DNA of 64,000 bases, from positions 5,608 through 69,607 of the forward strand of contig PBMZ01000006.1 of NCBI GenBank assembly GCA_002722955.1, written 5' to 3'. The stretch is from Planctomycetaceae bacterium (GTDB lineage: Bacteria; Planctomycetota; Planctomycetia; Planctomycetales; Planctomycetaceae). Position numbers and translations under genes: made by a program. The notes below the pieces were generated by a model. The model made no database searches. It was not told where the DNA came from and worked only from the letters and a program-made list of their open reading frames with translations. Shown piece after piece: positions 8,117 to 31,857 of this stretch (positions are counted from its first letter, which is position 1; every line of letters starts with the position of its first letter).

Positions 8117-10273
8117 ATGATATCCAAGATCGAATCGGTCGAAGAAATGTTTGTTCTGGCGCTAAAATACCAAAAAGCCGGCGATTTATCGATGGCTTCG
8201 CAAATTTACCAAAAAATTTTGGCTGTTGACCCTGAACACACTGCTTCGATCGGCAACTTAGCTTTGATTGTTCAACATTCAGGCAATAATGATTTAAGCA
8301 TCAAGTTGCTAAAGAAACTTATCTCTCTGGAGCCTAATGATACACGTGCATACAGCACTCTAGGCAATGCTTATTACCATCATGGATGTGCTCAGGCAGC
8401 AATTGAGTGCTATAAAAAAGTCCTCGAATTAGAACCGGAGTCTACGTCAGCTTTCGCTGATCTCGGTATTACGTACCAACATATTGGTGATTTTCATCAA
8501 GCTGTATCGTATTTGAAGCGTGGACTTGAGTTGGATGCGAATTCAGGACACATCAACTTCTGTTTAGGAAATGTTTACTACGAATCGGCTAACTATAAAC
8601 CGGCTATTCATCATTACAAAAAAGCAATACAAGTAGAACCTGATCATTCAGAAGCATATGCAAACCTAGCATTGTCTTACAAAGCTTTAAAGCAAAATAA
8701 CCTTGCAATTGATAGTCTAAAGATTGCCCTTGAATTAACACCCAATTCTTCTAATTTTCACTATAATCTGGGTAATATATATCAACAGGTAGGAAAACCT
8801 AAAAGAGCCATATTATGTTACCAGAAAGCTATTCAAATAAAGCCTCGTTTCTCCCAAGCCTATATTAACTTGGGTAATATTCTTCGTGATTTAGGACGAC
8901 GTAATAAAGCCATCGAATACCTAAAGGAGGCGGTACGTCTTGCTCCTGGCGATCCTGATGTATATTATAATCTAGGTCTTCACTTATCTGATCTCAACGA
9001 TTACAAAAAATCCAGCCATTTTTATCAGATTGCTATTGGTCTGAAATCTAAACAAGCTGTAAGTAACTATCTGATGGATTTGAATTACTATGAACAAATT
9101 GACCCAAAGTTGATTTTTGATAACCACTTAAGAGAAGCCAAAAAGTTACACATAGATCCGTTATCGAACGACCCGATTTCCGTTCCGCGACAAGATGGAT
9201 ATAAATCAAAGATCAAGATTGGCTATTTATCATCTGATTTTAGAAACCACAGTGTCGCTTGCTTTTTTCAGCCAATTGTTGAGTTTCATAATAGAGATGA
9301 ATTCGAGGTTTTCTGTTTTTCTAACTCAAGCATTGAAGATGAAATAACTAATCAGATCAGGACTCATTCTGACCACTTTATTCCAATTCATCACTTGCCG
9401 GATGTTGTAGCTTTTCAAAAAATCAAAAGCCAGGACTTAGATTTTTTAATTGACCTTAATGGGCATACTAGCGGTAACCGTTTGGCGATTTTGCGCTCTG
9501 GACTAGCCAAGAAAGTTTTGTCTTGGATCGGTTATCCTACGACAACTGGATTATCCACAGTTGATTATAAAATTAGTGACAACTATTGTGACCCAGCACC
9601 GTTTACTGATCAGTTTTACGCAGAAGATTTATTGAGACTAGACGGTTTCTTCATGGTTTATAAACCACCAAACTTTTTGCCTGAAATACAACCGAGTCCC
9701 TGTTTTTCTAATGGTTATTTAACTTTTGGTTGTTTCAACAATTTCAAAAAGATTAATCATTCACTAATTCGGATGTGGTCAAGGGCCCTGTTAGATCAAC
9801 CGCATTCTAGACTGATTTTGAAAAATAGTGGCAAACCTAATCAGCAGCAGAAAGAGATTTTTTTGGATTTTTTCTATCAATCAGGTGTTGACGATTCGCG
9901 TATCAAATTTTTCGATAGAATGGAAAGTAGAGTCGATCATTTGAATTTATACAACTTGGTTGATATCAGTCTTGATACCTACCCATATAGTGGAACGACG
10001 ACAACATTTGAATCCTTATTGATGGGCGTTCCTGTCTTTACTATGGTTGGCCAAACACACGTTTCTCGAGTGACTGGTTCAATTTTGGACCAACTGGATT
10101 TACATCAATTCACTGTTTCTAATTTCGAAGACTATGTGCCAGAATTGAGACAGTTAGCACAGAAAAAGTGTAACTTCGATCGGAGTTACCGCCAGAGATT
10201 GCTCCAGTCGAATTTATGTGACGGCTTAACGTTTGTAAGAGGATTGGAAACTAAACTGAAGCATGTAAGATAG
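8117..10273 (+). CDS. TPR protein with O-GlcNAc-transferase-like (GT41/SPINDLY) catalytic domain
   Basis: This 718-residue protein has about nine tetratricopeptide repeats (residues about 10-340; recurring YxNLGNxY...A..CY.KAI.I.P). A GT41-type catalytic domain follows (about 366-715). Family hallmarks are visible: IGYLSSDFRNHS, DFLIDLNGHTSGNR, LTFGCFNNFKKI and DTYPYSGTTTTFESLLMGVPV. Known GT41 enzymes attach GlcNAc or fucose to Ser/Thr of proteins; the TPRs select the acceptor. It has no signal peptide, so it should be cytosolic. It opens a run of two TPR glycosyltransferases ending at the flagellin gene, which suggests flagellin as acceptor (inference). The donor sugar is unknown. Confidence 0.9.
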   Translation: MISKIESVEEMFVLALKYQKAGDLSMASQIYQKILAVDPEHTASIGNLALIVQHSGNNDLSIKLLKKLISLEPNDTRAYSTLGNAYYHHGCAQAAIECYKKVLELEPESTSAFADLGITYQHIGDFHQAVSYLKRGLELDANSGHINFCLGNVYYESANYKPAIHHYKKAIQVEPDHSEAYANLALSYKALKQNNLAIDSLKIALELTPNSSNFHYNLGNIYQQVGKPKRAILCYQKAIQIKPRFSQAYINLGNILRDLGRRNKAIEYLKEAVRLAPGDPDVYYNLGLHLSDLNDYKKSSHFYQIAIGLKSKQAVSNYLMDLNYYEQIDPKLIFDNHLREAKKLHIDPLSNDPISVPRQDGYKSKIKIGYLSSDFRNHSVACFFQPIVEFHNRDEFEVFCFSNSSIEDEITNQIRTHSDHFIPIHHLPDVVAFQKIKSQDLDFLIDLNGHTSGNRLAILRSGLAKKVLSWIGYPTTTGLSTVDYKISDNYCDPAPFTDQFYAEDLLRLDGFFMVYKPPNFLPEIQPSPCFSNGYLTFGCFNNFKKINHSLIRMWSRALLDQPHSRLILKNSGKPNQQQKEIFLDFFYQSGVDDSRIKFFDRMESRVDHLNLYNLVDISLDTYPYSGTTTTFESLLMGVPVFTMVGQTHVSRVTGSILDQLDLHQFTVSNFEDYVPELRQLAQKKCNFDRSYRQRLLQSNLCDGLTFVRGLETKLKHVR

Positions 10274-10297
10274 ATTAAGGCACTTGTAAATTCCAAA

Positions 10298-10331
10298 ATT
10301 TTTCTTTTAATCTCTAGGTTAAAAGAAAAAT
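10298..10331 (+). terminator. AT-rich hairpin after the first TPR-OGT gene
   Basis: A perfect 13-bp inverted repeat (ATTTTTCTTTTAA at 10298-10310, its complement at 10319-10331) with an 8-base loop, 24 bases after the stop codon. It is almost pure A/T, so terminator activity is uncertain, but the position fits. Confidence 0.4.
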
Positions 10332-10391
10332 ATTAAAACAGGTGTCACATTCTAATCTTGATTTATGTAGACTTGTGTTTTTCACCAAAGT

Positions 10392-12041
10392 ATGAATTCG
10401 ATCACAAAACATAAAAAATTACTGCACAAGAATTACTCAACTAACCTGATGACTAAAATTAATTTTACTAATCATCTATCTGTTGACCAGTTGTTTGTAA
10501 CAGCTGTACAACATCATCAAGTCGGTGATTATGAACAAGCTGAAATTATTTATCACCATATTCTAGGGCTAGATCCAGCACACTACCTTTCGCTCAATAA
10601 TTTAGGATTAATTAACCTGCAGTCAGGCAGAAATAATCAAGCTGAGGAATATTTCAAGCATGCTATTACTGCCAATTCAAACTACTATGAAGCTCACACT
10701 AACCTGGGTAATCTACATCTACGTAATGGATGTTGTGTGCCGGCTATAAGTTCTTACAAAGAAGCTCTTCGGATCGCTTCTGATGATGAAGAAGTGTGGG
10801 CCAACTTGGGTAATGCTTACTTTAAGAACAATCAATTTGGCCAAACAATAAAATGTTATCAGACAGCTATCCAGCTTAACTCAAGCAGGTATGACCTGCA
10901 TAAAATGCTGGGCAATTGTCATTATATTCTGGGTCAATACCAAGATGCTATTAGATCTTATAAAGAGTCTTTAAAAATAAACCCTAGGCAACCTGAGCTT
11001 TATTGTAAAACAGGGTTATCTTGCCAAAATATTGGTTTGTATGAACGAGGGGTGGAATGTTTTAGACAAGCAGTGGCTTTGGAGCCAGACGATGCTGAAC
11101 TACATAGTCAGTTTGGTACATCCCTTCTATTAACAGGCGATTTTATGAATGGGTGGCTTGAGTATGAATGGAGACACAAAATGGCTAAATACAACAGGCA
11201 TTTTGTCAAACCGTTTTGGACCGGAGAAGATTGTGATGGTCAAACTCTGTTAATTTATGCCGAACAAGGGGTAGGGGACACCATCCAATTTTTACGATTT
11301 GTTACGCTACTCAAAGATAGAAATCTTACTATTGTTTTTGAATGCCCTCCACGTTTGAAACCTTTGATAGAAAGTTGGAACTTTCTCAGCAAAAAGTTCA
11401 AGGTTTTTTCTATTGGCGAAAATTTGCCAGACTTTGACTTTTACCTACCATTAATGAGCCTACCATTCCTGTTGGGTCTTAATCAAATTGACCAGATATC
11501 ATCAATCGCGCCTTGTCAGTTCTCTATTTGTGGTACTGATCATCGGTATTTAATAAAAAGAAATGAGAATGACTTAAAAATTGGTTTAGCTTGGGCTGGA
11601 AATCCTGAGCACGCTAGGGACCGCGATCGTTCGATTAAATTCACTGAATTCTCTAAATTGTTACGATTGAAAAATTGTAGTTTTTTCAGCCTGCAAGTTG
11701 GCCAAGCCAGAACTGAACTATACGAAACATCAAACGCTTCACTTAGAGAGTCAATTACAGATTGGGGACAGACTTTTACTAATTTTTTTGATACGGCCCA
11801 AGCTATCAGCCAGCTTGATTTAGTCATAACTGTGGATACAGCAATCGCCCATTTATCTGCAACGATGGGAAAAATGACCTGGATTATGTTGTCGGCCAAC
11901 CCGGATTGGCGCTGGCTAGTACGGAGAGAAAATTCGCCTTGGTATCCACAAGCTCGACTTTTTCGGCAACAAATTTTTGGTCGGTGGGATTCAGTGATTG
12001 CAAATATTGCCCAAAATTTACTCAAAATAAAAAAGAATTAA
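10392..12041 (+). CDS. TPR protein with GT9-like glycosyltransferase domain
   Basis: A 549-residue protein. Residues about 30-260 are seven or so TPR units. The C-terminal half (about 280-545) resembles the heptosyltransferase-like (GT9) domain that often follows TPRs: LLIYAEQGVGDTIQFLRF, KIGLAWAGNPEHARDRDRSI, LVITVDTAIAHLSATMGK and the closing PDWRWLVRRENSPWYP. The hinge motif NGWLEYEWRHK is typical of this family. Members are frequently linked to flagellin glycosylation loci, although a defined substrate is rarely known. It lies 118 bases after a TPR-OGT and 181 bases before flagellin. The annotated start could instead be the ATG at 10449, which removes a basic 19-residue leader. Confidence 0.88.
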   Translation: MNSITKHKKLLHKNYSTNLMTKINFTNHLSVDQLFVTAVQHHQVGDYEQAEIIYHHILGLDPAHYLSLNNLGLINLQSGRNNQAEEYFKHAITANSNYYEAHTNLGNLHLRNGCCVPAISSYKEALRIASDDEEVWANLGNAYFKNNQFGQTIKCYQTAIQLNSSRYDLHKMLGNCHYILGQYQDAIRSYKESLKINPRQPELYCKTGLSCQNIGLYERGVECFRQAVALEPDDAELHSQFGTSLLLTGDFMNGWLEYEWRHKMAKYNRHFVKPFWTGEDCDGQTLLIYAEQGVGDTIQFLRFVTLLKDRNLTIVFECPPRLKPLIESWNFLSKKFKVFSIGENLPDFDFYLPLMSLPFLLGLNQIDQISSIAPCQFSICGTDHRYLIKRNENDLKIGLAWAGNPEHARDRDRSIKFTEFSKLLRLKNCSFFSLQVGQARTELYETSNASLRESITDWGQTFTNFFDTAQAISQLDLVITVDTAIAHLSATMGKMTWIMLSANPDWRWLVRRENSPWYPQARLFRQQIFGRWDSVIANIAQNLLKIKKN

Positions 12042-12205
12042 AAAAAACTCAAGTTGAGTGAAAAACGTTCGACATTACTACTGGTGGTAGATTTTGAACT
12101 TAATTTCGATGCTGTTTTCAGCGTTCTTAGGTTTGTGTTCAAGCCACTAAAGCGTATTTAGTCATGACTTTAACGAGCTATTGTAGCCATTAGGATTAAT
12201 CCTTC

Positions 12206-12212
12206 AGGAGGT
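12206..12212 (+). promoter_or_regulatory. Perfect Shine-Dalgarno of the flagellin gene
   Basis: AGGAGGT ends 10 bases before ATG 12223, the strongest ribosome site in this part of the window and consistent with very high expression. No convincing sigma-28 or sigma-54 promoter was found in 12042-12205. Confidence 0.85.
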
Positions 12213-12222
12213 AAACTAGATA

Positions 12223-14805
12223 ATGGCATCTATTCGAACTAACTTACAAGCGGGATTGATTTCTCGCCAATTGTCTAACATTAATCGTAGGTTTACAACT
12301 AACTTAGAGCGGTTGTCAACCGGCTTGCGCCTTAATCGGCCAGACGATTCACCAGGGCAATATGGTGTAGTTATTAACCAAAACCTGCAAATACAGTCTC
12401 TTAATCAGGGCGTCCTTAATGCCCAGAATGCAGCAGGAATGCTGCAGACGGCCGAGGAAGGCATAAACACGTTAATTGATGTGTTGAATCGAGCTCATGA
12501 TTTGGCAGTCACCGCTGCAGATGCTACCTTGACTCAGGCTCAGCGCCAGCAGGCACAAGACGAAGTTGAAAGCTTACTCACTGCAAGCGACGGGTCAGCT
12601 GAGATTCAGCAACTGCTGGATAATGTTAACTACAACGGAGTCAAGCTTCTAGCTGATTCTGAAAAATCGGCTGCCATCCAAAATGCGGCTATCGGTGTCG
12701 TGGGTGGTTCTCGTGAGGCTACGGCCGCTGGTGGTGATAAAGTAGATCTACTCACTTTAACTGGTGGTTCTGCTACTCAGTTCTTTGAGACAACTGCTGC
12801 TTCAACTGCCCTAGGTGGTAACAACTTCGATACTATCACCGCTACTGACTTGACTAGTGTTGGTTTGGCAACGTCCAAGTCGGGCTTGGTTATAAACATG
12901 TCCAACGTAGCTGACACTGTTAACAAAGGTGATATTCTTGAGTTATCCGTAACCAATTCTTCCGGTACAACTAGTGATCAGGTGATCGTTGCTAGAGTAG
13001 ATCAAGACGCAGGAAATAAGGGTGGATTAGATAATGTAACAGTATTCAATGCGGACGGTCATACGGTAGCATTGGATTTGTATGATCTGTTGAATACCAC
13101 AGGAATTTCTTCGTCTACCGATACCTTCTCTATCAAGCGTATCCCCCAGACCTTGATTTTGGATTCAACCGGAGCAACCGCTACAAGTGGGTCATCACGT
13201 AACTTCAACCCTGGTACAATTGCGACTACCAATAACACAGATAGTGAATTCCGGGAAGTTCTGCATATCGGTGTTGCACTAAAAGCATCTAGCGATGCTG
13301 GTGCAGCTGCACTGAGTCGGGTTACCGTTAGTTTTGCTGACACAGATCCACTAGCCGCTGCGCGTAAAATCCAAGCAGCTATTGAAGATCAATTGGGTGG
13401 TGAATATCGTAAAGGTGGGTCTCTACACATTGACGTCACTGCAGTTGCCGATGTCTATAAAATTCAAGACCCTGACATCACCGGTGGTGGTGACACCAAC
13501 AACTCTTTACTCGTTGCGAGCAAAGCGGAGCTTACTGAAGACTTATGGACTAGTACTAAAAATGTGATAGGTACTGGTGCGTATAATAGCTTCAATGGTA
13601 CGACTTACATGGATCAGGTTGGCCGAGAATATGCAGATGCTAGCAAGGTCTTCTTCAAGTTCTCCACAACCACTACGGCAGGTGTCAACCAAACACCCGA
13701 GCTGCGTGTGATGTCAGACACTTTAGCTGGCTATACAGACTCAACTTATCCAGACCGGCTATTCGGCAACTCACTGAGTATTGCTACTGGCGAGCACGGC
13801 AACGATAAGTTCATGTTGACAATCGACGGAGAAGAAGTTGAGGTCGATTTGGACGCTGATTCTTCAAGCTCAACCAATACACGAATCCAGACTTTAGTAA
13901 CTGCAGCTGAAGCCAAGACCATAGGTCAGGCTAATACAACAGCCGCTGCGAACATGTCTGTGACTGCGATTGGTATTGCAGACAACAACACAACTGCGGG
14001 TGTTACCTATACAGCAGGTAGCGTTAATACCAACTTTAAGATCACGAATGATGTCGATGCTGGTTTAGACTATGCTATAGGTAATTCTACCAGTCGCAAC
14101 TATACTGGCGGTTATTACAGTCAGGATAACTTGCGGACTATGCTAACGAACGCAATCAATACTGCAACGACGTCTGCTAAGGACGCTAGCGTATCCTACG
14201 ACCACGCAACTCGTACGTTTACGGTAACTACTGGGTCCAGAAGTAATCTTAGTAGTCTTAATGTTGGTAAAAGTATAGCAACTAACATCACTTTAGATAA
14301 CTCAGCTAAAGCGACCAACATAGTTGATAGTACTCCAGGTACATCTGGCTTTGTAGGAGCTCTCGGTCTATCCCAAGGTGCTTCGAGCTCAGGATCAGGG
14401 TCGTTCTTTGAGTTCCGTCTTGGTGGCGATGGGGATACGTACTCCATTAACTTTGGCACCTTTGGTGTAACTAACATGGGTGCTGACCAAGTTGATATTT
14501 CGAATATCACCTTGTCAACCCAAAGTGGAGCGGCTAGTGCCATTTCGGTTATCGAGCAGGCATTAGATAGTATCAGCACTACACAAACCAAGATTGGTGC
14601 TGGTATTAATCACATGCAACGTCGTGTAAATGTGATGGAAAGCCATCGTGAAGCTTTACGTGGTGCTAAGGCAAGGATTGAAGAGATTGACTTTACCGTC
14701 GAGACCAGAAATCTGGCCAGTTTGCAGATTTTATTACAATCTAGTACTGCAGCTCTAGCGCAAGCCAATATTATTCCACAAACTTTATTGCAGCTTCTCG
14801 CTTAA
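12223..14805 (+). CDS. fliC: Flagellin with very large central variable region
   Basis: The 860-residue flagellar filament subunit has a conserved N-terminal D0/D1 region (about 1-145: ASIRTNLQAGLISRQL, LERLSTGLRLNRPDD, NAQNAAGMLQTAEEGI, VNYNGVKLL) and C-terminal D1/D0 region (about 775-860: ISTTQTKIGAGINHMQRRVNV, ending SSTAALAQANIIPQTLLQLLA). The roughly 620-residue insert is rich in Ser, Thr, Asn, Asp and Ala with few Lys/Arg and no Cys apparent. That suits a surface-exposed, possibly O-glycosylated domain. Flagellins are usually 270-550 residues, so this one is large. It has no signal peptide, as expected for type III export. It is followed by a hairpin, then flaG and fliS. Confidence 0.95.
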   Translation: MASIRTNLQAGLISRQLSNINRRFTTNLERLSTGLRLNRPDDSPGQYGVVINQNLQIQSLNQGVLNAQNAAGMLQTAEEGINTLIDVLNRAHDLAVTAADATLTQAQRQQAQDEVESLLTASDGSAEIQQLLDNVNYNGVKLLADSEKSAAIQNAAIGVVGGSREATAAGGDKVDLLTLTGGSATQFFETTAASTALGGNNFDTITATDLTSVGLATSKSGLVINMSNVADTVNKGDILELSVTNSSGTTSDQVIVARVDQDAGNKGGLDNVTVFNADGHTVALDLYDLLNTTGISSSTDTFSIKRIPQTLILDSTGATATSGSSRNFNPGTIATTNNTDSEFREVLHIGVALKASSDAGAAALSRVTVSFADTDPLAAARKIQAAIEDQLGGEYRKGGSLHIDVTAVADVYKIQDPDITGGGDTNNSLLVASKAELTEDLWTSTKNVIGTGAYNSFNGTTYMDQVGREYADASKVFFKFSTTTTAGVNQTPELRVMSDTLAGYTDSTYPDRLFGNSLSIATGEHGNDKFMLTIDGEEVEVDLDADSSSSTNTRIQTLVTAAEAKTIGQANTTAAANMSVTAIGIADNNTTAGVTYTAGSVNTNFKITNDVDAGLDYAIGNSTSRNYTGGYYSQDNLRTMLTNAINTATTSAKDASVSYDHATRTFTVTTGSRSNLSSLNVGKSIATNITLDNSAKATNIVDSTPGTSGFVGALGLSQGASSSGSGSFFEFRLGGDGDTYSINFGTFGVTNMGADQVDISNITLSTQSGAASAISVIEQALDSISTTQTKIGAGINHMQRRVNVMESHREALRGAKARIEEIDFTVETRNLASLQILLQSSTAALAQANIIPQTLLQLLA

Positions 14806-14821
14806 TCTAAGTTTAATTATT

Positions 14822-14850
14822 GAGGCAAAGAGGATTTCCCTCTTTGCCTC
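14822..14850 (+). terminator. Hairpin between flagellin and flaG
   Basis: A perfect 12-bp stem (GAGGCAAAGAGG at 14822-14833, complement at 14839-14850) with a 5-base loop, 17 bases after the flagellin stop. The U-tract is short (TCTCATT), so partial read-through into flaG is likely. This would set a high flagellin to low FlaG ratio. Confidence 0.75.
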
Positions 14851-14867
14851 TCTCATTGAGGTAGGAT

Positions 14868-15320
14868 ATGTCTTCAGTTAATGCCATTAATTCCTCTGTC
14901 GACACTGCCGTCGCTAGTGTCAAACAACAGATTTTGCTGGCTCAACAAAATGCCAGTCAACAAAAAACCGACCAATCAACGATTCGGCCCACATCTTCTG
15001 ATGTTGATGTAAGGCCTAGTGTAGATGCAGACCACCTCGGAGTGGAAGATATCACTGAAGTCGTTGAAGTTGATGCGCCAAAACCTCAAGAAATGTTGGA
15101 TAAAGTTCGCAATGTAATTCCTAAATTAAATTCAGTCATGCATAGCATGAACCTCAAACTTAGGTTTGAGGAATTTGCAGACTCCGGACGTTACTATGTG
15201 CGAGCGATGGATATGGTTGAACAGAAGGAAGTTTCCAGACTCCCCCACGATCAGTTTTTAAAACAGGCTGAAGTAACTAAGCATTTTATCAGTGGTTTAT
15301 TCGTCGACCAAGGTAAATAG
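14868..15320 (+). CDS. flaG: FlaG family flagellar protein
   Basis: A 150-residue protein with a variable N-terminus and the FlaG domain in the last about 70 residues. The domain pattern is LNSVMHSMNLKLRFEEF, an aromatic/charged strand (RYYVRAMDMVEQKEVSRLP), then a helix (DQFLKQAEVTKHFISGLF). FlaG proteins influence filament length in several bacteria; the mechanism is not settled. ATG 14868 has a good GAGGTAGG ribosome site just upstream. It lies between flagellin and fliS. Confidence 0.85.
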   Translation: MSSVNAINSSVDTAVASVKQQILLAQQNASQQKTDQSTIRPTSSDVDVRPSVDADHLGVEDITEVVEVDAPKPQEMLDKVRNVIPKLNSVMHSMNLKLRFEEFADSGRYYVRAMDMVEQKEVSRLPHDQFLKQAEVTKHFISGLFVDQGK

Positions 15321-15348
15321 TAGAATTTAATAGAGGAAACCTTTTACC

Positions 15349-15786
15349 GTGAACCACCCCCCCACAGACGTTCCAGAACAGCAATATCGTACGGTTCAGG
15401 TGGAAACCTCAACCACCTTGAACTTAGTACAAATGGCGTATGATGGTATTGTTGATAATTTGCGCCAAGCGGTTCAGGCGCTCAAGTCTGAGCCTAAATC
15501 TCTTGATGTTTTTAACGAAAAAGTATCAAAAGCCCAACAAATTGTTTCTGCGTTAGATGATGGAATAAATGAAGATGAGGGAGAGCTATCAGCTCTTTTA
15601 ACCAGTTTCTATGAGTTTATCCGAACAAAATTGATCGAGTCTAATATGCAAAAATCACTGGATGGAATAGAAGAGGCTTTGTTAGTTGTCGAGCAAGTTC
15701 GTGGTTTTTGGGCAGAAAGTAGTGAACTTGATGTGGATATTGGTACTAGAAAGGAAGATAATGTAAAAATCGATTTTTCTGGATAA
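15349..15786 (+). CDS. fliS: Flagellin export chaperone FliS
   Basis: A 145-residue, mainly helical protein with the FliS pattern: YRTVQVETSTTLNLVQMAYDGIVDNLRQAV, then helices containing VSKAQQIVSALDDGIN and LLTSFYEFIRTKLIESNMQKSLDGIEEA. FliS binds the disordered C-terminus of flagellin in the cytosol and delivers it to the export gate. The start is GTG 15349, supported by GAGGAAA at 15333-15339. It is 28 bases after flaG, so probably co-transcribed. Confidence 0.88.
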   Translation: MNHPPTDVPEQQYRTVQVETSTTLNLVQMAYDGIVDNLRQAVQALKSEPKSLDVFNEKVSKAQQIVSALDDGINEDEGELSALLTSFYEFIRTKLIESNMQKSLDGIEEALLVVEQVRGFWAESSELDVDIGTRKEDNVKIDFSG

Positions 15787-15810
15787 TAATAGTTTTGCTG
15801 AGTTTTAGAT

Positions 15811-18336
15811 TTGACTTATAACTGCCTGAACCAAGCGCGGGCTCTCTCTTCCCAGCAGCGTTACGCCGAGTCAAACGAGATTTGTGACCTTATACTTCGG
15901 GCCGATGGCCGTGATGTGGCTGCACTACAATTGAAAGCCCTCAATCTGGCTAGCTCGGGTGAACTAAGTCTTGCAGGCAACTTACTTCAGAAGTGTAGTA
16001 AAATTTCCCCTGAGGATGAGAAGGTTTGGCTAGACTTAGCTTATATCTATTCTAAACAAGGGGAGTGTGACCTATCGGAAGCCGCATACCGTCGATCCAT
16101 ATTTCTTGCTCCTGATTATTCCCCCGCATATAACGGTATAGCAGTGATCCAAGCCCGAAAGGGGGATTACAAATCGGCCATAGCCACACTAAGACAGGCG
16201 GTAACCGTCAACTCAAACGATCTTGTTTCTTACAACAATTTAGCCCGCCTACTTGAAAGTAACAAAGAATTCAAGAGCGCAATGATGATTTATCAGCGGC
16301 TTTTGACTTTGTCTCCGACAGCTGATAATTACCAATCTCTCATTCATTCCTACCTGAAAGCTGGTTTATCTAAGGCTGCTGCCTCGACGTGCTGTGACGG
16401 CTTAAGGAAGCATCCAAAAAACATAGCTCTGAGGAGAATTTCATTTCAACTAGAAAATGGTCCTGTCAAAGTTTCACCTGAAGCTGATCAGAAAGTTAAA
16501 AAACAACTTGAAGTGATTCTTCAGCTATTAAAAAAAGATAATATAGACACTGCTGGACAATTGTTTGAACAACTTTATCGAGAGAACCCGTACCACCCAT
16601 TACTTTTGCATGATTATGGCTTATATTGCCTCCGGCATGCTAACCGAAAAAATATAAAGTTTGGCCTCGAAATATTGGATAGAGCAGTCCTAATTTATCC
16701 AAATTTTCTTCCTCCCTATAAAACACTAGCCAATTATTTTTATTCTCAGGATGATTTTGAAAGTGCTATTTTGTTCGCCAAAGAAGGAATCAAGTTTAGC
16801 CAATCTCAGTCAGATTTGTACTATGTGCTTGCAATGGCACTGAAAGAAATTGGAAAATTGAAAGACGCAATTCAGGTAATGGAGAAAGGCTTGAAAGCGG
16901 ACGGTCATATACCAATAGAGATGTATCATGAACTTGGCCTACTATATGATAATGTAGGGCAGTTTAGTTGCGCTAAATCGTATTATCAAAAAGCATTGTC
17001 AGTTGACCCTGATTATTATCAGTCTAAGTTTAATTATGGTTTGCTTTTATCTCGATCAGGTTTTGTAGATGAATCAATTCTCACTTTTGATGAATTACCA
17101 TTTCTTGATCAGAATGGATATGAAGCTCTTTTGTATGCACTCGCTTGTCATCCGGAAAAATATCGACATCTTCCTCTTTACTTGAAAAAATGGCCTAAAT
17201 TATATGCAGGTCATATAGTGGCAAAAACTGTACACTTTAAAAAAAATAAACAAAAAAAAATTCGAATCGGTTATGTATCTGCTGACCTTAGGAAACATCC
17301 CATAGCACATTTTATGGCTGGGATTTATTCTCATCATAATAAAAATGACTTTGAGATTTACTCTTATTATAATGGCATGAATGTTGATACTTACACATCT
17401 CAATTCAAGTCTCAATCCGACCAATGGCGTAATATCCGATCGCTTTCCGATCAGGATCTAGAACATCAGATAAAAAGAGATCAGATTGACATACTCATTG
17501 ATCTTTCTGGTCATACAAGCCACAATCGACTGCCAGTTTTTGTCGCTAAACCAGCACCAATACAAGTCACGTATCTCGGATATTTGGCTTCTACGGGAAT
17601 ACCACAAATAGATTATCGGCTTATTGATGGGTATGCTCGACCGGATGTTGGTATAGAGAAATTAATCGAACTTCCAAATTGCTACTTGTGCTACCAACCG
17701 CTTGAATCAGGTATCTCAGCTAGTATTAACGCACAATCTAAAAAAGGGCATGTGACTTTTGGTAGCTTTCATCGTCTTTCTAAAATTCATCATCGCTTGG
17801 TGAACGTCTGGTCTGAGATTTTATTGAGGGTGCCAGATTCAGCACTTTTGATGAAGACGAGATATCTCGATGATCCCGAAATAAAAATGAAACTCTTAGA
17901 TAAATTCATTGATAATGGCATCGATCCGGAAAGAATTATTTTTAAAGGTCATTCTGACTCCTTAACCTCCCATCTCTCCGCCTACAATGATATTGATATT
18001 ATGCTGGATGCATTTCCATATAATGGAACAACAATCACCTGTGAGTCCTTGTGGATGGGGGTTCCAGTTGTAACTGTAGCGGGACAAGTCCATTTTAGTC
18101 GTGTAGGAGTTAGTATCAATACCAATTCTGGGCTCCCTGAATTGATCGGAAACGATGAAAATGAGTATGTCAAGATTGCCTCAAATTTGGCCGAGGACCA
18201 TAGCCGATTGGCTGAATACAATTGCCAATTGAGAAAACAATTTTTGGATTCGTTAGTTTGTGACCCAGTTACTTTTACCCAAAACTTGGAAACTACCTAC
18301 AGAAAGATGTACCACCGCTGGCGACATTCGAACTGA
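15811..18336 (+). CDS. Second TPR protein with O-GlcNAc-transferase-like (GT41) domain
   Basis: An 841-residue protein. TPR-type helical repeats fill residues about 1-430, with a break near 200-230. The GT41 domain covers about 484-835 and shows IGYVSADLRKHPIAHFMAG, ILIDLSGHTSHNRLPVF, VTYLGYLASTGIPQIDYRL, HVTFGSFHRLSKIHHRLV and DAFPYNGTTITCESLWMGVPV. This is closer to the bacterial OGT consensus than the copy at 8117. The frame starts at TTG 15811 with no good ribosome site; no earlier in-frame ATG was seen and the next one is deep inside the TPRs. It follows fliS by 24 bases, so it is probably in the flagellin operon, which supports a role in flagellin glycosylation (inference). Confidence 0.88.
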   Translation: MTYNCLNQARALSSQQRYAESNEICDLILRADGRDVAALQLKALNLASSGELSLAGNLLQKCSKISPEDEKVWLDLAYIYSKQGECDLSEAAYRRSIFLAPDYSPAYNGIAVIQARKGDYKSAIATLRQAVTVNSNDLVSYNNLARLLESNKEFKSAMMIYQRLLTLSPTADNYQSLIHSYLKAGLSKAAASTCCDGLRKHPKNIALRRISFQLENGPVKVSPEADQKVKKQLEVILQLLKKDNIDTAGQLFEQLYRENPYHPLLLHDYGLYCLRHANRKNIKFGLEILDRAVLIYPNFLPPYKTLANYFYSQDDFESAILFAKEGIKFSQSQSDLYYVLAMALKEIGKLKDAIQVMEKGLKADGHIPIEMYHELGLLYDNVGQFSCAKSYYQKALSVDPDYYQSKFNYGLLLSRSGFVDESILTFDELPFLDQNGYEALLYALACHPEKYRHLPLYLKKWPKLYAGHIVAKTVHFKKNKQKKIRIGYVSADLRKHPIAHFMAGIYSHHNKNDFEIYSYYNGMNVDTYTSQFKSQSDQWRNIRSLSDQDLEHQIKRDQIDILIDLSGHTSHNRLPVFVAKPAPIQVTYLGYLASTGIPQIDYRLIDGYARPDVGIEKLIELPNCYLCYQPLESGISASINAQSKKGHVTFGSFHRLSKIHHRLVNVWSEILLRVPDSALLMKTRYLDDPEIKMKLLDKFIDNGIDPERIIFKGHSDSLTSHLSAYNDIDIMLDAFPYNGTTITCESLWMGVPVVTVAGQVHFSRVGVSINTNSGLPELIGNDENEYVKIASNLAEDHSRLAEYNCQLRKQFLDSLVCDPVTFTQNLETTYRKMYHRWRHSN

Positions 18337-18832: not shown

Positions 18833-19819
18833 ATGAAAATTTTGGTTACTGGCAATGCTGGACTTATGGGAGCTCGATTTTGTGATTGGCTGGTTGAAAA
18901 AACGAGCCACGATATTATTGGAATTGATGATCTCAGCGGTGGTTATCAAGATAATATTCATCCAAAAGTTACTTTCATTAAACAAAACTTGCTTGATGAC
19001 CTGACTCCAATCTTTGAACAGCATGAGCCAGAAGTAATTTATCACTTTGCTGCATATGCAGCCGAAGGGCTATCTCCATTTATTCGCAGATATAACTATG
19101 AAAACAATCTGATTGCTTCTGTGAATTTGATCAATAACGCAATCAAATTTGATGTTCAGCGGTTTGTTTTTACTAGTTCCATGGCAGTTTATGGCGATTC
19201 TTGTACCCCACCTTTTACTGAAAATGACCCGACAAGGCCGATTGATCCATATGGTATTGCCAAACTTGCAGTGGAGAAAGATTTAGAAGTTGCCTATGAA
19301 CAGCATGGCTTGAAATATACGATCATTCGTCCGCATAATTTCTATGGAGACAAACAAAATATTTGGGATCGTTATCGAAATGTTTTAGGAATTTGGATGA
19401 ATCAAGTTATTAATGAAGAAAACCCTACGATTTTTGGTAATGGAGAACAGCGACGTGCATTTTCCTGTATAGATGATGCTTTGGTTCCACTATGGAACGC
19501 GAGTCAACGAGATGCCTGTATTGGTCAAGTGATCAACCTTGGTGGGATCAAGGATGTTTCGATTTTAGATGCCTGCTTAACTTTATTGGACGTTACCGGA
19601 ACTAAACTACAGCCAGTTTTTTTAGAAAATCGACATGAGGCAAAAAATGCATTCAGTTCATGGGAGAAGTCCATCGAGTTACTAGATTTTGAACATAAAA
19701 TCGAGTTGAGGGAAGGATTAGAGAAGATGTGGCAGTGGGCAAAAAAACAACCTAAACGCCCCCAATTCACTTGGCATGAATATGAACTAGATAAAAATCT
19801 CTATGGCTTTTGGCAATGA
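18833..19819 (+). CDS. NAD-dependent epimerase/dehydratase (extended SDR)
   Basis: A Rossmann-fold sugar-nucleotide enzyme of 328 residues. The N-terminus MKILVTGNAGLMG is a variant of the usual TGGAGFIG NAD-binding motif. The catalytic Ser/Tyr/Lys are seen in FTSSMAVYGD and DPYGIAK. Other SDR features are HFAAYAAEG and IIRPHNFYGD. The family acts as UDP-sugar 4-epimerase, dehydratase or decarboxylase; the substrate cannot be told. The ATG at 18833 is chosen because AGGAGGT (18820-18826) sits just before it; the frame extends to a TTG at 18815, but that start would lie in front of this site. Confidence 0.85.
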   Translation: MKILVTGNAGLMGARFCDWLVEKTSHDIIGIDDLSGGYQDNIHPKVTFIKQNLLDDLTPIFEQHEPEVIYHFAAYAAEGLSPFIRRYNYENNLIASVNLINNAIKFDVQRFVFTSSMAVYGDSCTPPFTENDPTRPIDPYGIAKLAVEKDLEVAYEQHGLKYTIIRPHNFYGDKQNIWDRYRNVLGIWMNQVINEENPTIFGNGEQRRAFSCIDDALVPLWNASQRDACIGQVINLGGIKDVSILDACLTLLDVTGTKLQPVFLENRHEAKNAFSSWEKSIELLDFEHKIELREGLEKMWQWAKKQPKRPQFTWHEYELDKNLYGFWQ

Positions 19820-20238: not shown

Positions 20239-21714
20239 TTGAGTAAAAAACAAATGCCTTCTTATGATAACTTGAATATTCTTTTTTCATCTCATTACTC
20301 TGACGAGTATATCAAAGTGCCTGATTTTTCTTCTCGGCAGGTTAATTGTGGTCCTAACTGTCAAGATAAAGACGATGGTATTCGTGCATTGTCTGTAAAA
20401 ACCCCAGTCGGACAATATGATATCCAAGAAATTATTAGCAAGTTGCCCAATAACCAAAGACCTGACTTGGTAATTGTGAAATCGGACGCTACTCGTTCTA
20501 ATCATCCGATAAATATTGAGAGCTTATCGATACCGACACTTCTGATTATTGGTGATACAATGCACCAACATCGTCCGCTTCAGACGATGTTAGCATATGC
20601 AAGGGAGCAAAAATTCGATTATTATGTTGCTGATCACGGAAAAAGACATTTACATTTTTTTCGTCAACTTGGTATTGATGCCCATTGGTTACCTGGCGTA
20701 CTAATAAGAACATGGGATATCCCATTTGAACAAGTAAGAGATATTCCTATATCATTTGTAGGTCAGGCAGGTAGATTCCACCCCCATAGGCGGCTGTTAC
20801 TCGATAAAGTAAAAAATGATAAATTCAATTTATTTCAAACGCGAGCCTCCCAGAAAGACGCTTGTCTTATCTACGCTAAATCTCAGATAACATTGAATTT
20901 AAGTATGATGGGTGATATTAACTTGCGGGTATTCGAAGCACTATCTGCTGGTGGATTTTTAATTACAGACGATATATCCCCTCAAGCTGGAAAAGACTTG
21001 ATATTTAAGAATGGTGAGCATTTGGTTTTATTCAAAGATTATGAAGATCTCAAATCCAAACTCAATTATTACCTAGAAAATCCATCAGAAGCGATGGCTA
21101 TTGCAGAAAAAGGCTATCAAGAATTCTATTTAAATCATTCCCCAAGCGTCAAGCGTAAGCAATTATTTGACCTAGTATTTGAGGGAAAACTACCAAATTC
21201 ATATGATGGCAGAACAGACAAACGTTCTATAATCATTCCAGAAAACAAACAAACAGTAATAGCTGATAGGGTTCAGAAATACGAGTATTTACAGTCAATA
21301 CACCGAATAAAGGAAAAATTAAAACTTATTTTTCTTGTAGGTTCTGACCAATACCTTCTATCTGATCTCGTTGATATGCCAAGATTTGAGTTATATCATA
21401 CTGATCCTCCATCAGAAAATCTAATGAATGCTATTGGTCCAAACCAAATTACAAGAATAGACTTGACGAACATAAAAAATGAAAATTGTTCTTGCACTTT
21501 TGATCTCGCGGTTGTGAGCTGGCAAACTCTTGAATTTTCTTTTTCGAAAAATTACCTCAAAAAGGCTAAGATAAAGCAGGTAATTGTTGCAAACGATAAA
21601 TCTGTACCCGAAATGGACATTTCGTTTGATATTGATAATGAAATCATGAATTTTGGGTACTTGGCTTTAAGACATGACGGTTTAACTGTTTACCATTTGC
21701 AAACTAGAGACTAA
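20239..21714 (+). CDS. CgeB-like glycosyltransferase (GT-B fold)
   Basis: A 491-residue protein. The middle part (about 170-310) matches the CgeB/Glyco_trans_1_2 pattern: ISFVGQAGRFHPHRRLLL, then INLRVFEALSAGGFLITDD with the acidic residue used for nucleotide-sugar binding, and the tail YLENPSEAMAIAEKGYQEF. The last about 150 residues have no recognised domain. It probably transfers a sugar in a surface glycan or glycoprotein pathway. The start is uncertain: TTG 20239 opens the frame and ATG 20254 is five codons later; neither has a strong ribosome site. It is 15 bases before the Gfo/Idh gene, suggesting an operon. Confidence 0.75.
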   Translation: MSKKQMPSYDNLNILFSSHYSDEYIKVPDFSSRQVNCGPNCQDKDDGIRALSVKTPVGQYDIQEIISKLPNNQRPDLVIVKSDATRSNHPINIESLSIPTLLIIGDTMHQHRPLQTMLAYAREQKFDYYVADHGKRHLHFFRQLGIDAHWLPGVLIRTWDIPFEQVRDIPISFVGQAGRFHPHRRLLLDKVKNDKFNLFQTRASQKDACLIYAKSQITLNLSMMGDINLRVFEALSAGGFLITDDISPQAGKDLIFKNGEHLVLFKDYEDLKSKLNYYLENPSEAMAIAEKGYQEFYLNHSPSVKRKQLFDLVFEGKLPNSYDGRTDKRSIIIPENKQTVIADRVQKYEYLQSIHRIKEKLKLIFLVGSDQYLLSDLVDMPRFELYHTDPPSENLMNAIGPNQITRIDLTNIKNENCSCTFDLAVVSWQTLEFSFSKNYLKKAKIKQVIVANDKSVPEMDISFDIDNEIMNFGYLALRHDGLTVYHLQTRD

Positions 21715-21729
21715 ATACAGGTTTTCATT

Positions 21730-22761
21730 GTGAAGAAAATTAAGGTAGCACAACTTGGGGTTGGGTATTGGGGCCCAAATTTACTCAGAAATTTGCTTAG
21801 TAATCACAAATGCGAAGTTCAATGTGTTGTTGACTTATCATTAGAACGAAGATTATTTGTGGAAAATCTGAATTCAACTATAAATGTTCAAGCTGATTCC
21901 AATGCAGTTTTTGAAGATGAAGGGATCGAAGCTGTGGTGATTGCGACACCAGCGAGAACTCACTTTCAGCTAGTAATGAGAGCTCTTGAAGCAGGTAAAC
22001 ATGTATTGGTTGAAAAACCAATGGCAACTACGGTAGAAGAAGTTGACCTTATCAGCCAAATTGCAGAAAAAAAGGAATTAGTTGCAATGGTAGGGCATAC
22101 TTTCCTTTACAATCAATGTGTACAGTTCATAAAACGTGTGATTGATCAAGGAGACATTGGTACTGTTCGTTACATATACAGTCAGCGACTGAACTTGGGT
22201 CGAATTCGTAGGGACGTCAATGCGCTGTGGAACTTAGCACCACATGATGTCAGTATCCTGCAGTATTGGTTGAACGAACCTGAACCGATTGACGTCTCGA
22301 TGACTGGAATGTGTTTCGTACAGGAGAGTATTGAGGATGTTGCCTTCTTAAACATTACTTATCCTAACAATATTATGGCTCATTGTCATGTGAGTTGGTT
22401 AGATCCTCAGAAAGTAAGGCAAATCACCGTAGTTGGTAGCAAAAAAATGATTGTCTACGATGACTTGGCTGATAATAAAGTTGCTATTTACGATAAGGGA
22501 ATTGATAGGATGGCGGTTTTAGGAGAGGGAATGGACTTTGATCAGAGCCCTCTATTTACGCTTAGCCATCGTTCTGGTGATGTAATTCTGCCTAAAATTG
22601 AATGGAAAGAACCTCTTCAACTAGAAGTTAATCATTTTCTGGACTGTATAATGGGTCAAGATGAATGTTTAACCTCAACGGAACACGCAAGAAACGTAAT
22701 CCAAATTTTGAGTTTAGCTAGTGATAAAAACAGAACACATTCGCGAAACAGCCATTATTAA
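21730..22761 (+). CDS. Gfo/Idh/MocA sugar dehydrogenase (possibly UDP-GlcNAcA 3-dehydrogenase, WlbA/WbpB role)
   Basis: A 343-residue NAD(P)-dependent oxidoreductase: Rossmann motif GVGYWGPN (residues about 9-16), the conserved EKPMATT with the catalytic lysine, and WNLAPHDVSIL in the C-terminal domain with the conserved HD. The start is GTG 21730. It is followed by an overlapping LbH acetyltransferase and a DegT aminotransferase, the same trio that makes 2,3-diacetamido uronic acids (WlbA-WlbB/WbpD-WbpE). The specific role is inferred from that context. Confidence 0.85.
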   Translation: MKKIKVAQLGVGYWGPNLLRNLLSNHKCEVQCVVDLSLERRLFVENLNSTINVQADSNAVFEDEGIEAVVIATPARTHFQLVMRALEAGKHVLVEKPMATTVEEVDLISQIAEKKELVAMVGHTFLYNQCVQFIKRVIDQGDIGTVRYIYSQRLNLGRIRRDVNALWNLAPHDVSILQYWLNEPEPIDVSMTGMCFVQESIEDVAFLNITYPNNIMAHCHVSWLDPQKVRQITVVGSKKMIVYDDLADNKVAIYDKGIDRMAVLGEGMDFDQSPLFTLSHRSGDVILPKIEWKEPLQLEVNHFLDCIMGQDECLTSTEHARNVIQILSLASDKNRTHSRNSHY

Positions 22762-23194
22762 AAACAGCCATATTGGAGAGGGTACAAAAATTTGGCACTA
22801 TGCAAATATTTATGACTGTAAAATTGGTGGGTCTTGTACCATCGGCTCTTTTGTAGAAATTCAGAATGGTGTCAGTATTGGGAATTCAGTGACCATTTCT
22901 TCTCATAGCTTCATATGTTCTCTCAGTGTAATTGAAGATGATGTATTTGTAGGACATGGAGTAATGACGATTAATGACATTTATCCACCTTCATTTAAAC
23001 GTACAGGAAGCAAAGAAAAATGGAAGCCCATATTAATTAAATCTGGAGCAGTGATCGGTAGTAACGCTACGATTATGCCTGTCACTATTGGTGCAAATTC
23101 AATAATTGGCGCTGGTAGTGTTATTTTGAAAGATATACCTGATAATGCAGTTGTCGCAGGTAACCCTGCAAAAATCATAAGATATGTGAAATAG
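22721..23194 (+). CDS. Left-handed beta-helix N-acetyltransferase (WbpD-like)
   Basis: A 157-residue hexapeptide-repeat acyltransferase with repeated [LIV]-G-x4 turns (IGEGTKIWHYANIY, IGGSCTIGSFVEI, IGNSVTISS, IGANSIIGAGSVI) and the usual ending VAGNPAKII. It likely acetylates the 3-amino group of a UDP-amino sugar. The start is GTG 22721, overlapping the end of the upstream gene by 41 bases, so translation is probably coupled. The downstream aminotransferase follows after 5 bases. Confidence 0.85.
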   Translation: MIKTEHIRETAIIKNSHIGEGTKIWHYANIYDCKIGGSCTIGSFVEIQNGVSIGNSVTISSHSFICSLSVIEDDVFVGHGVMTINDIYPPSFKRTGSKEKWKPILIKSGAVIGSNATIMPVTIGANSIIGAGSVILKDIPDNAVVAGNPAKIIRYVK

Positions 23195-23199
23195 TAAAT

Positions 23200-24312
23200 A
23201 TGAGAGTCCCATTTGTAGATTTAAAATCCCAATATCAAGAAATTAAGTTAGAAATTGACGTAGCAATACAGCAGGTTATTGATCAATCAGCATTTGTTCG
23301 GGGTTCCCATGTAAAATCTTTTGAAAAAAACTACAAGACCTTATTCGGGGTTGAACATTGCATTTCTTGTGGTAATGGCACTGATGCACTATACATTTCT
23401 CTCAAAGCCTTAGGGATTGGTCCTGGTGATGAAGTTATTACGACGGCTTTGAGTTGGATTGCTAGTTCTGAAGTTATTACCCAGTGTGGAGCAAAAGTAG
23501 TTTTTGCTGATATAGAAGCTGATTATTACACAATAGACCCGCTAGATATAGAAAGAAAAATTACTAAAAACACGAAAGCTATAATTCCAGTACATCTTCA
23601 TGGACAGGCCGCCAACATGCAAGCAATTATGTCAATTGCTGAGCGGCATAACCTTTACGTAATTGAAGATTGTGCCCAAGCTCACCTAGGCAAGTACAGA
23701 GGAGAAATACTAGGTACTTTTGGAATTGCGGGTACATTTAGTTTTTATCCTTCCAAGAATTTGGGTGCGTTTGGAGATGCCGGTGCGATTATTTCGAATA
23801 ACGAAGAGTTTGCTATTAAGGCGCGTATGTTCGCTAATCATGGGGCGATTGAGAAGCCAGATCACTTGTTGGAAGGTATAAACAGCAGAATGGATGGAAT
23901 ACAAGCGGCAGTTCTTTCTGTAAAACTTAATTATTTAAAAAAGTGGAACCAACAAAGGAAAATAGTGGCCAACTCATATACGAAATTCCTATCACGAATT
24001 CCTGATATTTTGCCACCAAAAATCCGGCCAGATTCTCAACACGCCTTTCATCTTTATGTAGTACAGACTAATGAACGGGACCAACTCAGATCATACTTGT
24101 CGGATGAAGGAATTGATTCGTCTATTCACTATCCAATAGCCCTGCCTTTTCTCGGTGCATACGATTACCTGAAACACTGCCCATCGGATTTCCCAGTTGC
24201 TTTTGGAGTAACTCAAAATATTTTGTCTTTACCGATGTATCCCGAATTAACTACCAATCAGTTGGAAAGAATATTAGATACTATACTTCAAAGCACTGTA
24301 AGGAAAAAGTGA
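23200..24312 (+). CDS. DegT/DnrJ/EryC1/StrS sugar aminotransferase (WbpE-like)
   Basis: A 370-residue PLP enzyme. It begins with the family signature VPFVDLKSQY, has CISCGNGTDALYISLKAL, IEDCAQAHLG and the PLP lysine in SFYPSKNLGAFGDAG. It would aminate a 3-keto UDP-sugar made by the Gfo/Idh enzyme, with the LbH protein acetylating the product. It is the last gene of this plus-strand operon; about 1 kb of non-coding DNA follows. Confidence 0.9.
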   Translation: MRVPFVDLKSQYQEIKLEIDVAIQQVIDQSAFVRGSHVKSFEKNYKTLFGVEHCISCGNGTDALYISLKALGIGPGDEVITTALSWIASSEVITQCGAKVVFADIEADYYTIDPLDIERKITKNTKAIIPVHLHGQAANMQAIMSIAERHNLYVIEDCAQAHLGKYRGEILGTFGIAGTFSFYPSKNLGAFGDAGAIISNNEEFAIKARMFANHGAIEKPDHLLEGINSRMDGIQAAVLSVKLNYLKKWNQQRKIVANSYTKFLSRIPDILPPKIRPDSQHAFHLYVVQTNERDQLRSYLSDEGIDSSIHYPIALPFLGAYDYLKHCPSDFPVAFGVTQNILSLPMYPELTTNQLERILDTILQSTVRKK

Positions 24313-25310: not shown

Positions 25311-25778
25311 ATGGATCAAGACTTAAAGAAAGCCCAATATTTTTTTCAAATCGGAAGATATGAAGACGCACTGAAGATTGGCACTCATATTCTTGATAGC
25401 GGAAATCGTTGCCCCCAGCTATTACATTTACTAGGTCTTTGTTGTATTCATACAAACAGGTTCAATGACGCGAAAGAATTTCTTCATCAAGCCGTCATTT
25501 TTGAACCCTTAAATGAAAAAAAATGGCAGGATCTCGGGTTTGTTTTTCACAAACTGGGTTTATTTGATCAAGGGTTAGAAGCGTACTTGAATTCTTTACA
25601 AATTAACCCTGACTCTGCTCTGGCACTCAATGGTTTAGCCGTTATCTCTGCACACTGTAAAGATTATAATGCTTCTATCAAATATATCCGATTAGCAAAT
25701 AAAATTGCTCCAAACGATAATAATATTAAGAACAACTACGCTAAAATTAGTGGAATTTGGAAATCTAGAAAGATTTAG
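25311..25778 (+). CDS. Small TPR protein
   Basis: A 155-residue protein made almost only of about four TPR units (AQYFFQIGRYEDALKIG, LHLLGLCCIHTNRFNDAKEF, WQDLGFVFHKLGLFDQGLEAY, ALNGLAVISAHCKDYNASIKYI). No catalytic domain is attached. Its repeats resemble those of the TPR-OGT at 15811 (both contain ALNGLAVI/AYNGIAVI-type units), so it could be a truncated relic or a stand-alone adaptor. No strong ribosome site. Confidence 0.65.
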   Translation: MDQDLKKAQYFFQIGRYEDALKIGTHILDSGNRCPQLLHLLGLCCIHTNRFNDAKEFLHQAVIFEPLNEKKWQDLGFVFHKLGLFDQGLEAYLNSLQINPDSALALNGLAVISAHCKDYNASIKYIRLANKIAPNDNNIKNNYAKISGIWKSRKI

Positions 25779-25972
25779 CAATTGTATTAAAATGATTGTC
25801 TTACTTTCGATCATTGGTTATTCCATAGTTATTTCGAGTTTTAATTTGCGTTTAATAACCTGCAATTATATTGAATTAAATATTACTTTCGACTGGTTCG
25901 AGACTACACTGATTTAGGATTTGTGAGATAGACTCGCTACTCTTAATAGTCCATTTTTTGAAGGTAAATGAT

Positions 25973-27034
25973 ATGTTGAAGACATTAGCAGTTGACAATC
26001 GTTCAACCTTGCGAGACGCAATGCAAGTTATTGATAAAAATAGTGGGATGCCATGTATTATTGTAGATAAAAATGGTATTTTCGTAGGTATTATAACTGA
26101 CGGAGATATTCGAAGGGCTCTATTAAGAGGTACCGAAATAGATGAAAATATTAATGTTGTGGTCAATTACAAGTTAGAAATAGAAGACCGTAAGCAAATT
26201 GTTGCCAATATGGACCTGCCAAAAACCCGTTTAAAATGTATGATGGAAGAACATGGCATCAAACATATTCCTATTTTAGATAATTCTGATAAGTTCATTT
26301 ACTTAGCTACACAAGAATATATCGAAGAATCTTCAAAACTAAGTTGTGCTTTAGTAATGGCAGGTGGGCTTGGAACGAGACTCAAACCGCTCACTGATAA
26401 TCTACCAAAGCCTATGTTACCTATCAAAGGGAAACCACTCCTTGAAAGAATTATTGAACAACTTTCAAGGCAAGGGATCTCTAATATTTTTATTTCTACA
26501 TTTTATAAATCAGAAAAAATCATAAATTACTTCAATGATGGTAAAGATTTTGGTGTTTCAATTAACTACCTACACGAGGACAGGCTAACAGGTACAGCAG
26601 GAGCTCTCTTGCTATTGCCACCAATAAATACTCCAATATTAGTTTTAAATGGAGATGTATGTACCACAGTGAATTTTAAACAAATGATGGAATTCCACAA
26701 TGAGCATCAAGCTGATATGACGGTTGGAACTTATCAATTTGCTTACCAACTTGAGTATGGTGTTTTGGAAACAAAGGGCTATGAAGTCATTGGTATTTCA
26801 GAAAAACCGGTGTTGAAATATTCGGTTAATACTGGAATATACATTTTATCTCCTGCTTGTTTTGAATTTATGCCTGACAGCTTTGACAAGTCTGAGTTGT
26901 TTCATATGACAGATTTTTTAGAATTGCTGATTCAGCAAAATTTGAAAGTGGTGGATTTTCCAATTTATGAGTCTTGGCTAGATATTGGTAGTATGGAAGA
27001 TTACAGAGCTGCTCAAGAGCTGAGTGTGCCTTAA
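25973..27034 (+). CDS. CBS-domain nucleotidyltransferase, PtmE-like (GDP-aminosugar pyrophosphorylase)
   Basis: Two CBS domains occupy about residues 1-120 (IITDGDIRRALLRG). A sugar-1-phosphate nucleotidyltransferase domain follows (about 121-350): MAGGLGTRLKPLTDNLPKPMLP with the catalytic lysine, LNGDVCTTVNF and the C-terminal SWLDIGSMEDY. This architecture is that of PtmE, which makes GDP-glucosamine for legionaminic acid in Campylobacter. The frame opens at TTG 25958, but ATG 25973 follows AAGGT (25961-25965) at good spacing and is preferred. It lies 1.3 kb from the convergent nonulosonate operon, supporting that role. Confidence 0.85.
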   Translation: MLKTLAVDNRSTLRDAMQVIDKNSGMPCIIVDKNGIFVGIITDGDIRRALLRGTEIDENINVVVNYKLEIEDRKQIVANMDLPKTRLKCMMEEHGIKHIPILDNSDKFIYLATQEYIEESSKLSCALVMAGGLGTRLKPLTDNLPKPMLPIKGKPLLERIIEQLSRQGISNIFISTFYKSEKIINYFNDGKDFGVSINYLHEDRLTGTAGALLLLPPINTPILVLNGDVCTTVNFKQMMEFHNEHQADMTVGTYQFAYQLEYGVLETKGYEVIGISEKPVLKYSVNTGIYILSPACFEFMPDSFDKSELFHMTDFLELLIQQNLKVVDFPIYESWLDIGSMEDYRAAQELSVP

Positions 27035-29064: not shown

Positions 29065-29164
29065 ACTTTTTACCTCAAACCGGTCAGTTCCTCTAGGTAC
29101 TAAATTAGCCATCTAGAATGAGAAAATTACCAATTACTCAAAGAAAGTTACAAGAAGCTTTTTA

Positions 29165-31683: not shown

Positions 31684-31857
31684 GCTTGTACTCTCCTAGC
31701 TCAATTAAGAAAGAAGTTTACCAATTGAGTTAACGAACCTGATTTCGTTACTAATTTCGTTGTATCGTATTAAAATTTCGGTGAGCTATCATTTATACGG
31801 CTATTGGTTAGACATACAATTTATACATTTATCAGCTGATTACTTTTATCCATATGC

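Follow-up and report, generated by a model that had tools for sequence, protein, structure and literature searches.

A putative flagellin glycosylation locus with two SPINDLY-clan GT41 enzymes and a third TPR glycosyltransferase in a Poribacteria-like bacterium

The DNA analysed, here called the window, comprises 64,000 nt of contig G000:C6, and all coordinates refer to it. Six open reading frames, P0001, P0002, fliC, flaG, fliS and P0006, form a run on one strand (Table 1), with intergenic gaps of 24 to 118 bp except for 181 bp upstream of fliC. A first-pass annotation had placed fliC, flaG and fliS among three TPR glycosyltransferases, the last of them 24 bases after fliS; the positions, common strand and Pfam families of the ORFs bore out this order, and the distance from fliS to the start of P0006 was measured as 24 bp. 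The flagellin has a long central region that is Ser/Thr-rich by composition (152 S/T per 620 aa). No sigma-28 consensus was found in the window and sigma-70-like sites were not above the level of shuffled sequences; terminator-like sites numbered 12, compared to a mean of 8.8 in the shuffles. The same annotation had seen no Maf-type transferase. The assembly indeed gave no match to the Maf domain (PF01973, PF20157), but these models also matched no bacterial control.

Table 1. Features of the window; the first six rows make up the run at 8117-18336
Feature	Coordinates	Strand	Assignment	Basis
P0001	8117-10273	+	TPR repeats and SPINDLY-clan GT41, 718 aa	Pfam PF13844
P0002	10392-12041	+	TPR and GT-B domain, weakly GT9-like, 549 aa	PF01075 sub-threshold; AF2 model
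P0003 (fliC)	12223-14805	+	Flagellin, 860 aa	Flagellin_N (PF00669) 69 bits, Flagellin_C (PF00700) 60 bits
P0004 (flaG)	14868-15320	+	FlaG	PF03646, 29.6 bits
P0005 (fliS)	15349-15786	+	FliS, flagellin export chaperone	PF02561, 82 bits; TIGR00208, 57.9 (cut-off 53.75)
P0006	15811-18336	+	TPR and SPINDLY-clan GT41, 841 aa, TTG start	PF13844
SDR gene	18833-19819	+	NAD-dependent nucleotide-sugar epimerase/dehydratase	PF01370, 148 bits; galE 124 bits, below cut-off
Glyco_trans_1_2 gene	20239-21714	+	Glycosyltransferase-like protein	PF13524, 76.7 bits
Sugar genes	21730-24312	+	Gfo/Idh-type sugar dehydrogenase, hexapeptide acyltransferase, DegT-type aminotransferase	NCBIfam, below cut-offs
TPR ORF	25311-25778		155 aa	
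CBS-nucleotidyltransferase	25958-27034	+	CBS and sugar nucleotidyltransferase	PF00483, 148 bits; PF00571, 42 bits
Nonulosonic acid (legionaminic-type) genes	28342-35384	-	CMP synthetase, NeuC, NeuB, LegC, LegB-like, NDP-sugar dehydrogenase	NCBIfam TIGR03568 480 (cut-off 236), TIGR03569 488 (400), TIGR04181 (LegC) 471 (420), TIGR03026 246 (190); CMP synthetase and LegB-like below cut-off
Second sugar group	44590-48427	+	CMP-NulO synthetase-like gene, two HisF/HisH-type ORFs, WbuX-type N-acetyl sugar amidotransferase	TIGR03573 334 (cut-off 203); PseF 123, below cut-off; HisF/HisH from reading translations

In both P0001 and P0006 many TPRs lie N-terminal to a GT41 catalytic domain (Pfam Glyco_transf_41, 141 and 157 bits, respectively; cut-off 25), and both catalytic domains were closer to plant SPINDLY (SPY) than to OGT. 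For P0006, sequence and fold (AF2 model pLDDT 90.1; TMt of 0.83 against 8dti, the complex of SPY with GDP-fucose) both gave SPY as the best PDB match, and for the P0001 catalytic domain SPY was the best match by sequence (348 bits to the SPY structure). The SPY clan differs from OGT in that K689, at the guanine, and Y744, at the fucose, replace OGT L866 and C917; K665 is catalytic (PMC10027727). When the SPY residues that contact guanine, pyrophosphate and fucose (PMC10027727, PMC9715652) were mapped onto the two proteins, both were found to keep K665, K689, H728, Y744, T747, T748, E752 and H495; the residue of P0006 equivalent to K665 is K658. The third clan residue, A731, is kept in P0006 and is L in P0001, which additionally keeps S496, V497, I592 and N662. 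By these residues P0001 and P0006 are assigned to the SPY clan and not to the OGT clan. The earlier label of OGT/SPINDLY-type enzymes was correct as to the TPR-GT41 architecture, but both proteins carry the K689 and Y744 equivalents and are not placed with the UDP-GlcNAc OGTs.

Since the guanine-contacting residues are kept, the donor of both GT41 enzymes is probably a GDP-sugar. GDP-fucose itself is doubtful, because no GDP-mannose 4,6-dehydratase scored over the cut-off in the poribacterial relative described below; contig C6 gave weak matches only, and these two scans do not support GDP-fucose as a certain donor. P0006 shares its fold and its GDP and fucose contact residues with Arabidopsis SPINDLY (7y4i, 8dti), and differs from it by S496P and N662R. 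These two substitutions, at donor-contacting positions, occur in P0006 and its poribacterial ortholog and are absent from P0001, which hints weakly at a difference in specificity, as in the earlier suggestion of two GT41 specificities acting in sequence. No member of the GT41 set is closely related to P0001 (end branch of 1.2 in the tree), a point that counts against a role of the locus in flagellin glycosylation. An assignment of P0001 as MamA (NCBIfam, 238 bits; cut-off 200) was rejected in favour of consensus-like TPRs, as the protein also matches engineered consensus TPRs at 521 bits.

P0002 matched Glyco_transf_9 with 19.2 bits, under the cut-off of 22. In its AlphaFold2 model (pLDDT 87.7) a TPR superhelix, with helices to about residue 263, is followed by a two-domain alpha/beta glycosyltransferase (residues 285-548), and the best whole-chain PDB structure matches were SPY and OGT. 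Of the first-pass description as a TPR-GT9-like protein, the TPR and glycosyltransferase fold was recovered in the model, but the GT9 family match stayed sub-threshold. Homologs are widespread at 28-34% and are named 'TPR-containing glycosyltransferase family protein'; the best named homolog lies on a Rhodovastum plasmid, 4.5 kb from a flagellin-flaF-flbT group. In the cytosol of Caulobacter crescentus, FlmG attaches to flagellin through its TPR domain and transfers pseudaminic acid to it (Ardissone et al. 2020, PMC7591256). Its layout, an N-terminal TPR domain and a GT-B domain of ~290 residues in a soluble protein, is that of P0002; the likeness drawn here is one of layout, and a nonulosonic acid pathway is present in both genomes. 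FlmG, in contrast to the present locus, is a single enzyme, and it uses pseudaminic acid. Because P0002 has the FlmG layout, the mechanism is less new than the first-pass annotation had implied.

The run is followed by sugar genes (Table 1). The genes at 21730-24312 are likely to act in amino-sugar nucleotide synthesis, as judged from their family matches. Most of the legionaminic acid pathway lies downstream of the flagellin locus and could serve P0002, LPS or both, and the CBS-nucleotidyltransferase presumably resembles PtmE of the GDP-based legionaminic acid route. Both glycosyltransferase and sugar biosynthesis genes, by which a flagellin glycosylation island is recognised, were found beside fliC. 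The 155-aa TPR ORF shares ~30% identity with the N-terminal part of P0006 and could be left over from a third TPR glycosyltransferase.

The assembly that holds the contig comprises 7.1 Mb in 220 contigs and is 79% complete. The GC content of the window was 37.5%, compared to 50-55% in every other sampled contig of the assembly, and its GC-normalised tetranucleotide correlation was 0.82-0.88 with contigs of Candidatus Poribacteria Arabian9_MAG_50 and 0.43-0.56 with its own bin. The thrS gene of the window is 77% identical to thrS of the same poribacterial MAG; a second thrS elsewhere in the bin is 43-51% identical to it over two matched parts. On the GC content, the tetranucleotides and this second, different thrS, the contig was mis-binned and is a piece of a Poribacteria-like genome. 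It belongs to an uncultured Poribacteria-like bacterium and not to the genome of its assembly, which these tests ruled out as the host genome; statements about the remaining assembly therefore do not apply to the owner of the contig. Contig G000:C88 of the same bin carries two genes for TPR-GT2 proteins of 1054 and 684 aa and then three tandem flagellins (L125 8160-18069), another TPR glycosyltransferase-flagellin layout, in the true genome of the bin. Since contig C6 was mis-binned, these five genes are from another organism.

The nearest relative of P0006 was found by an alignment scan, a scan with P0006 as a single protein having given nothing. It is encoded in the Candidatus Poribacteria MAG named above, matches P0006 at 65% in the catalytic domain and 52.7% over 837 aa, and starts 42 bp 3' of fliS. 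P0001 and P0006 are the only two GT41 ORFs in the whole assembly and both lie at the flagellin locus; this, together with the recurrence of the fliS-GT41 order in the Poribacteria MAG, indicates that the clustering of GT41 with flagellin genes is not due to chance. Other fetched flagellin contigs of the poribacterial relative had no GT41 or TPR-GT9 gene nearby, and none of its TPR-GT9 homologs lay beside flagellin, both of which count against a flagellin role.

A flagellin-type gene was present in 8 of the 79 named loci nearest P0006, and the edge of fliS in one more. With flagellin-type genes at a density of 0.24-1 per Mb, a Poisson estimate gives 0.27-1.1 expected loci; the P values, 1.5e-11 to 2.7e-6, are guides only, because the loci cannot be treated as independent and the search started from a flagellin-linked query. 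Loci linked to flagellin or fliS occurred in Poribacteria, Planctomycetota, Mariprofundus, Desulfobacterales, Deltaproteobacteria, Rhodospirillales and Geobacter, the last being weak (L276, Flagellin_N 32 bits only). The order fliC-fliS-GT41 was found in two Planctomycetota MAGs (L264 and L275, with a fliS-GT41 gap of ~1.2 kb in L275), and in a Rhodospirillales MAG three flagellins, a TPR-GT9 and two GT41s lie one after another. In a set of 99 genomes near the bin, flagellin-adjacent GT41s were seen in G022, G025 and G037 and flagellin-adjacent TPR-GT9s in G019 and G050; locus L273 also has the latter. In G022:C46 (L057 4826-18679) an uninterrupted series of five TPR-GT41 genes lies behind a single flagellin gene, all on one strand. 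At L163 12086-16291 a 1401-aa TPR-GT41-methyltransferase fusion lies directly 3' of flagellin, like those of enterobacterial islands. Synteny in related genomes had been proposed as a check in the first-pass annotation, and it was found, as the retained fliS-GT41 order in Poribacteria and as a linkage that recurs in several phyla. In a tree of 177 GT41 domains (a quick search without mixture model) the starred branches forced at least 10 changes in flagellin linkage, which is therefore scattered and not confined to one clade. Most GT41 genes of relatives lay away from flagellin, and some by type I secretion genes, which argues that the TPR glycosyltransferases are not flagellin-specific as a family.

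From these sequence comparisons we consider it probable (about 0.72) that the run is a Poribacteria-like flagellin glycosylation locus in which cytosolic TPR glycosyltransferases, P0006 as the main enzyme with P0001 and P0002 as partners, modify flagellin before export. The TPR superhelix of these enzymes would bind newly made flagellin, and sugars would be put on Ser/Thr of its long central region ahead of FliS-guided export. P0006, directly 3' of fliS, is the likeliest core transferase; P0001 (the second SPINDLY-type enzyme) and the FlmG-like P0002 may differ from it in target sites or donors, or may lengthen the glycan. The donor of P0001 and P0006 would probably be a GDP-activated sugar, and that of P0002 may be CMP-legionaminic acid made by the downstream genes. 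Flagellin as the acceptor is suggested by conserved linkage and precedent, and the donors by active-site residues and neighbouring genes; the linkage and the order of action are likewise proposed. The first-pass proposal of cytosolic flagellin O-glycosylation is thereby favoured by the kept fliS-GT41 order, the multi-phylum linkage and precedent (PMC4875605, PMC7591256), but not its OGT-type enzymes.

That P0002 is the sole flagellin transferase, with CMP-legionaminic acid as donor, and that the GT41s extend the glycan or modify other proteins, appears unlikely. Its FlmG layout, the legionaminic genes on the same contig and the TPR-GT9s beside flagellin in several genomes agree with such a role; it is a GT41, however, and not a TPR-GT9 that was kept beside fliS in the poribacterial relative. 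Slightly less likely still is action of the TPR glycosyltransferases on another exported surface protein (e.g. an adhesin), with fliC nearby as part of a general surface-glycan island. Here the abundance of sugar genes on the contig is in accord, as are two cases in other bacteria. In Azospirillum, SPINDLY-like GT41 genes adjoin genes for GDP-L-fucose synthase and for type I secretion (L193 13682-31674, L196 9114-15570), a possible sign of fucosylation of secreted proteins, and an Arcobacter plasmid has a TPR-GT9 next to type I secretion genes and an ORF of very large size, ~25 kb (L195 1-13317). The fliS-GT41 order of Poribacteria and the fliC-fliS-GT41 order of the Planctomycetota MAGs argue against it. 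Regulatory O-fucosylation of cytosolic proteins by the GT41s, as by plant SPINDLY and unrelated to the filament, is very improbable: SPY K665, K689, Y744, T747, T748 and E752 are conserved, but the dehydratase scans and the operon-like link of the GT41s with flagellin genes speak against it.

The proposed flagellin glycosylation by the three enzymes has partial precedents. A survey of 198 Enterobacteriaceae strains described SPINDLY-domain GT41s, predicted flagellin transferases, in fliC-adjacent islands (De Maayer and Cowan 2016, PMC4875605). Those islands have one glycosyltransferase family each, and their GT41 is mostly fused to a methyltransferase, whereas the present locus has two GT41s and a TPR-GT9-like enzyme, no methyltransferase fusion and a link to fliS, and belongs to Poribacteria. 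Apart from this genomic survey, no literature on the biochemistry of GT41 and flagellin was found. Maf nonulosonic acid transferases carry out the same task, cytosolic O-glycosylation of flagellin before export, and are of a different family. Known already, then, are the fliC-adjacent SPINDLY-type GT41s (2016) and the TPR glycosyltransferase FlmG (2020); the novel points are the phylum, the proximity to fliS and the combination of a TPR-GT9-like enzyme with two GT41s.

More tentatively, and possible rather than probable, three TPR glycosyltransferases of two families at one locus may build a mixed GDP-/CMP-sugar glycan on one flagellin, and such enzymes may be a general cytosolic system for proteins exported unfolded (flagellins and type I secreted adhesins); for the latter, the type I secretion neighbours in Azospirillum and Arcobacter are a lead only. 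The locus breaks the rule of one glycosyltransferase family per island seen in Enterobacteriaceae, and would carry a known but little-tested type of flagellar glycosylation into a further phylum, here with enzymes of mixed families. Hardly any substrate is known for bacterial SPINDLY-like GT41s; the active site predicts a GDP-sugar donor, and the fliS-adjacent GT41s of Poribacteria and Planctomycetota point to flagellin as a testable acceptor.
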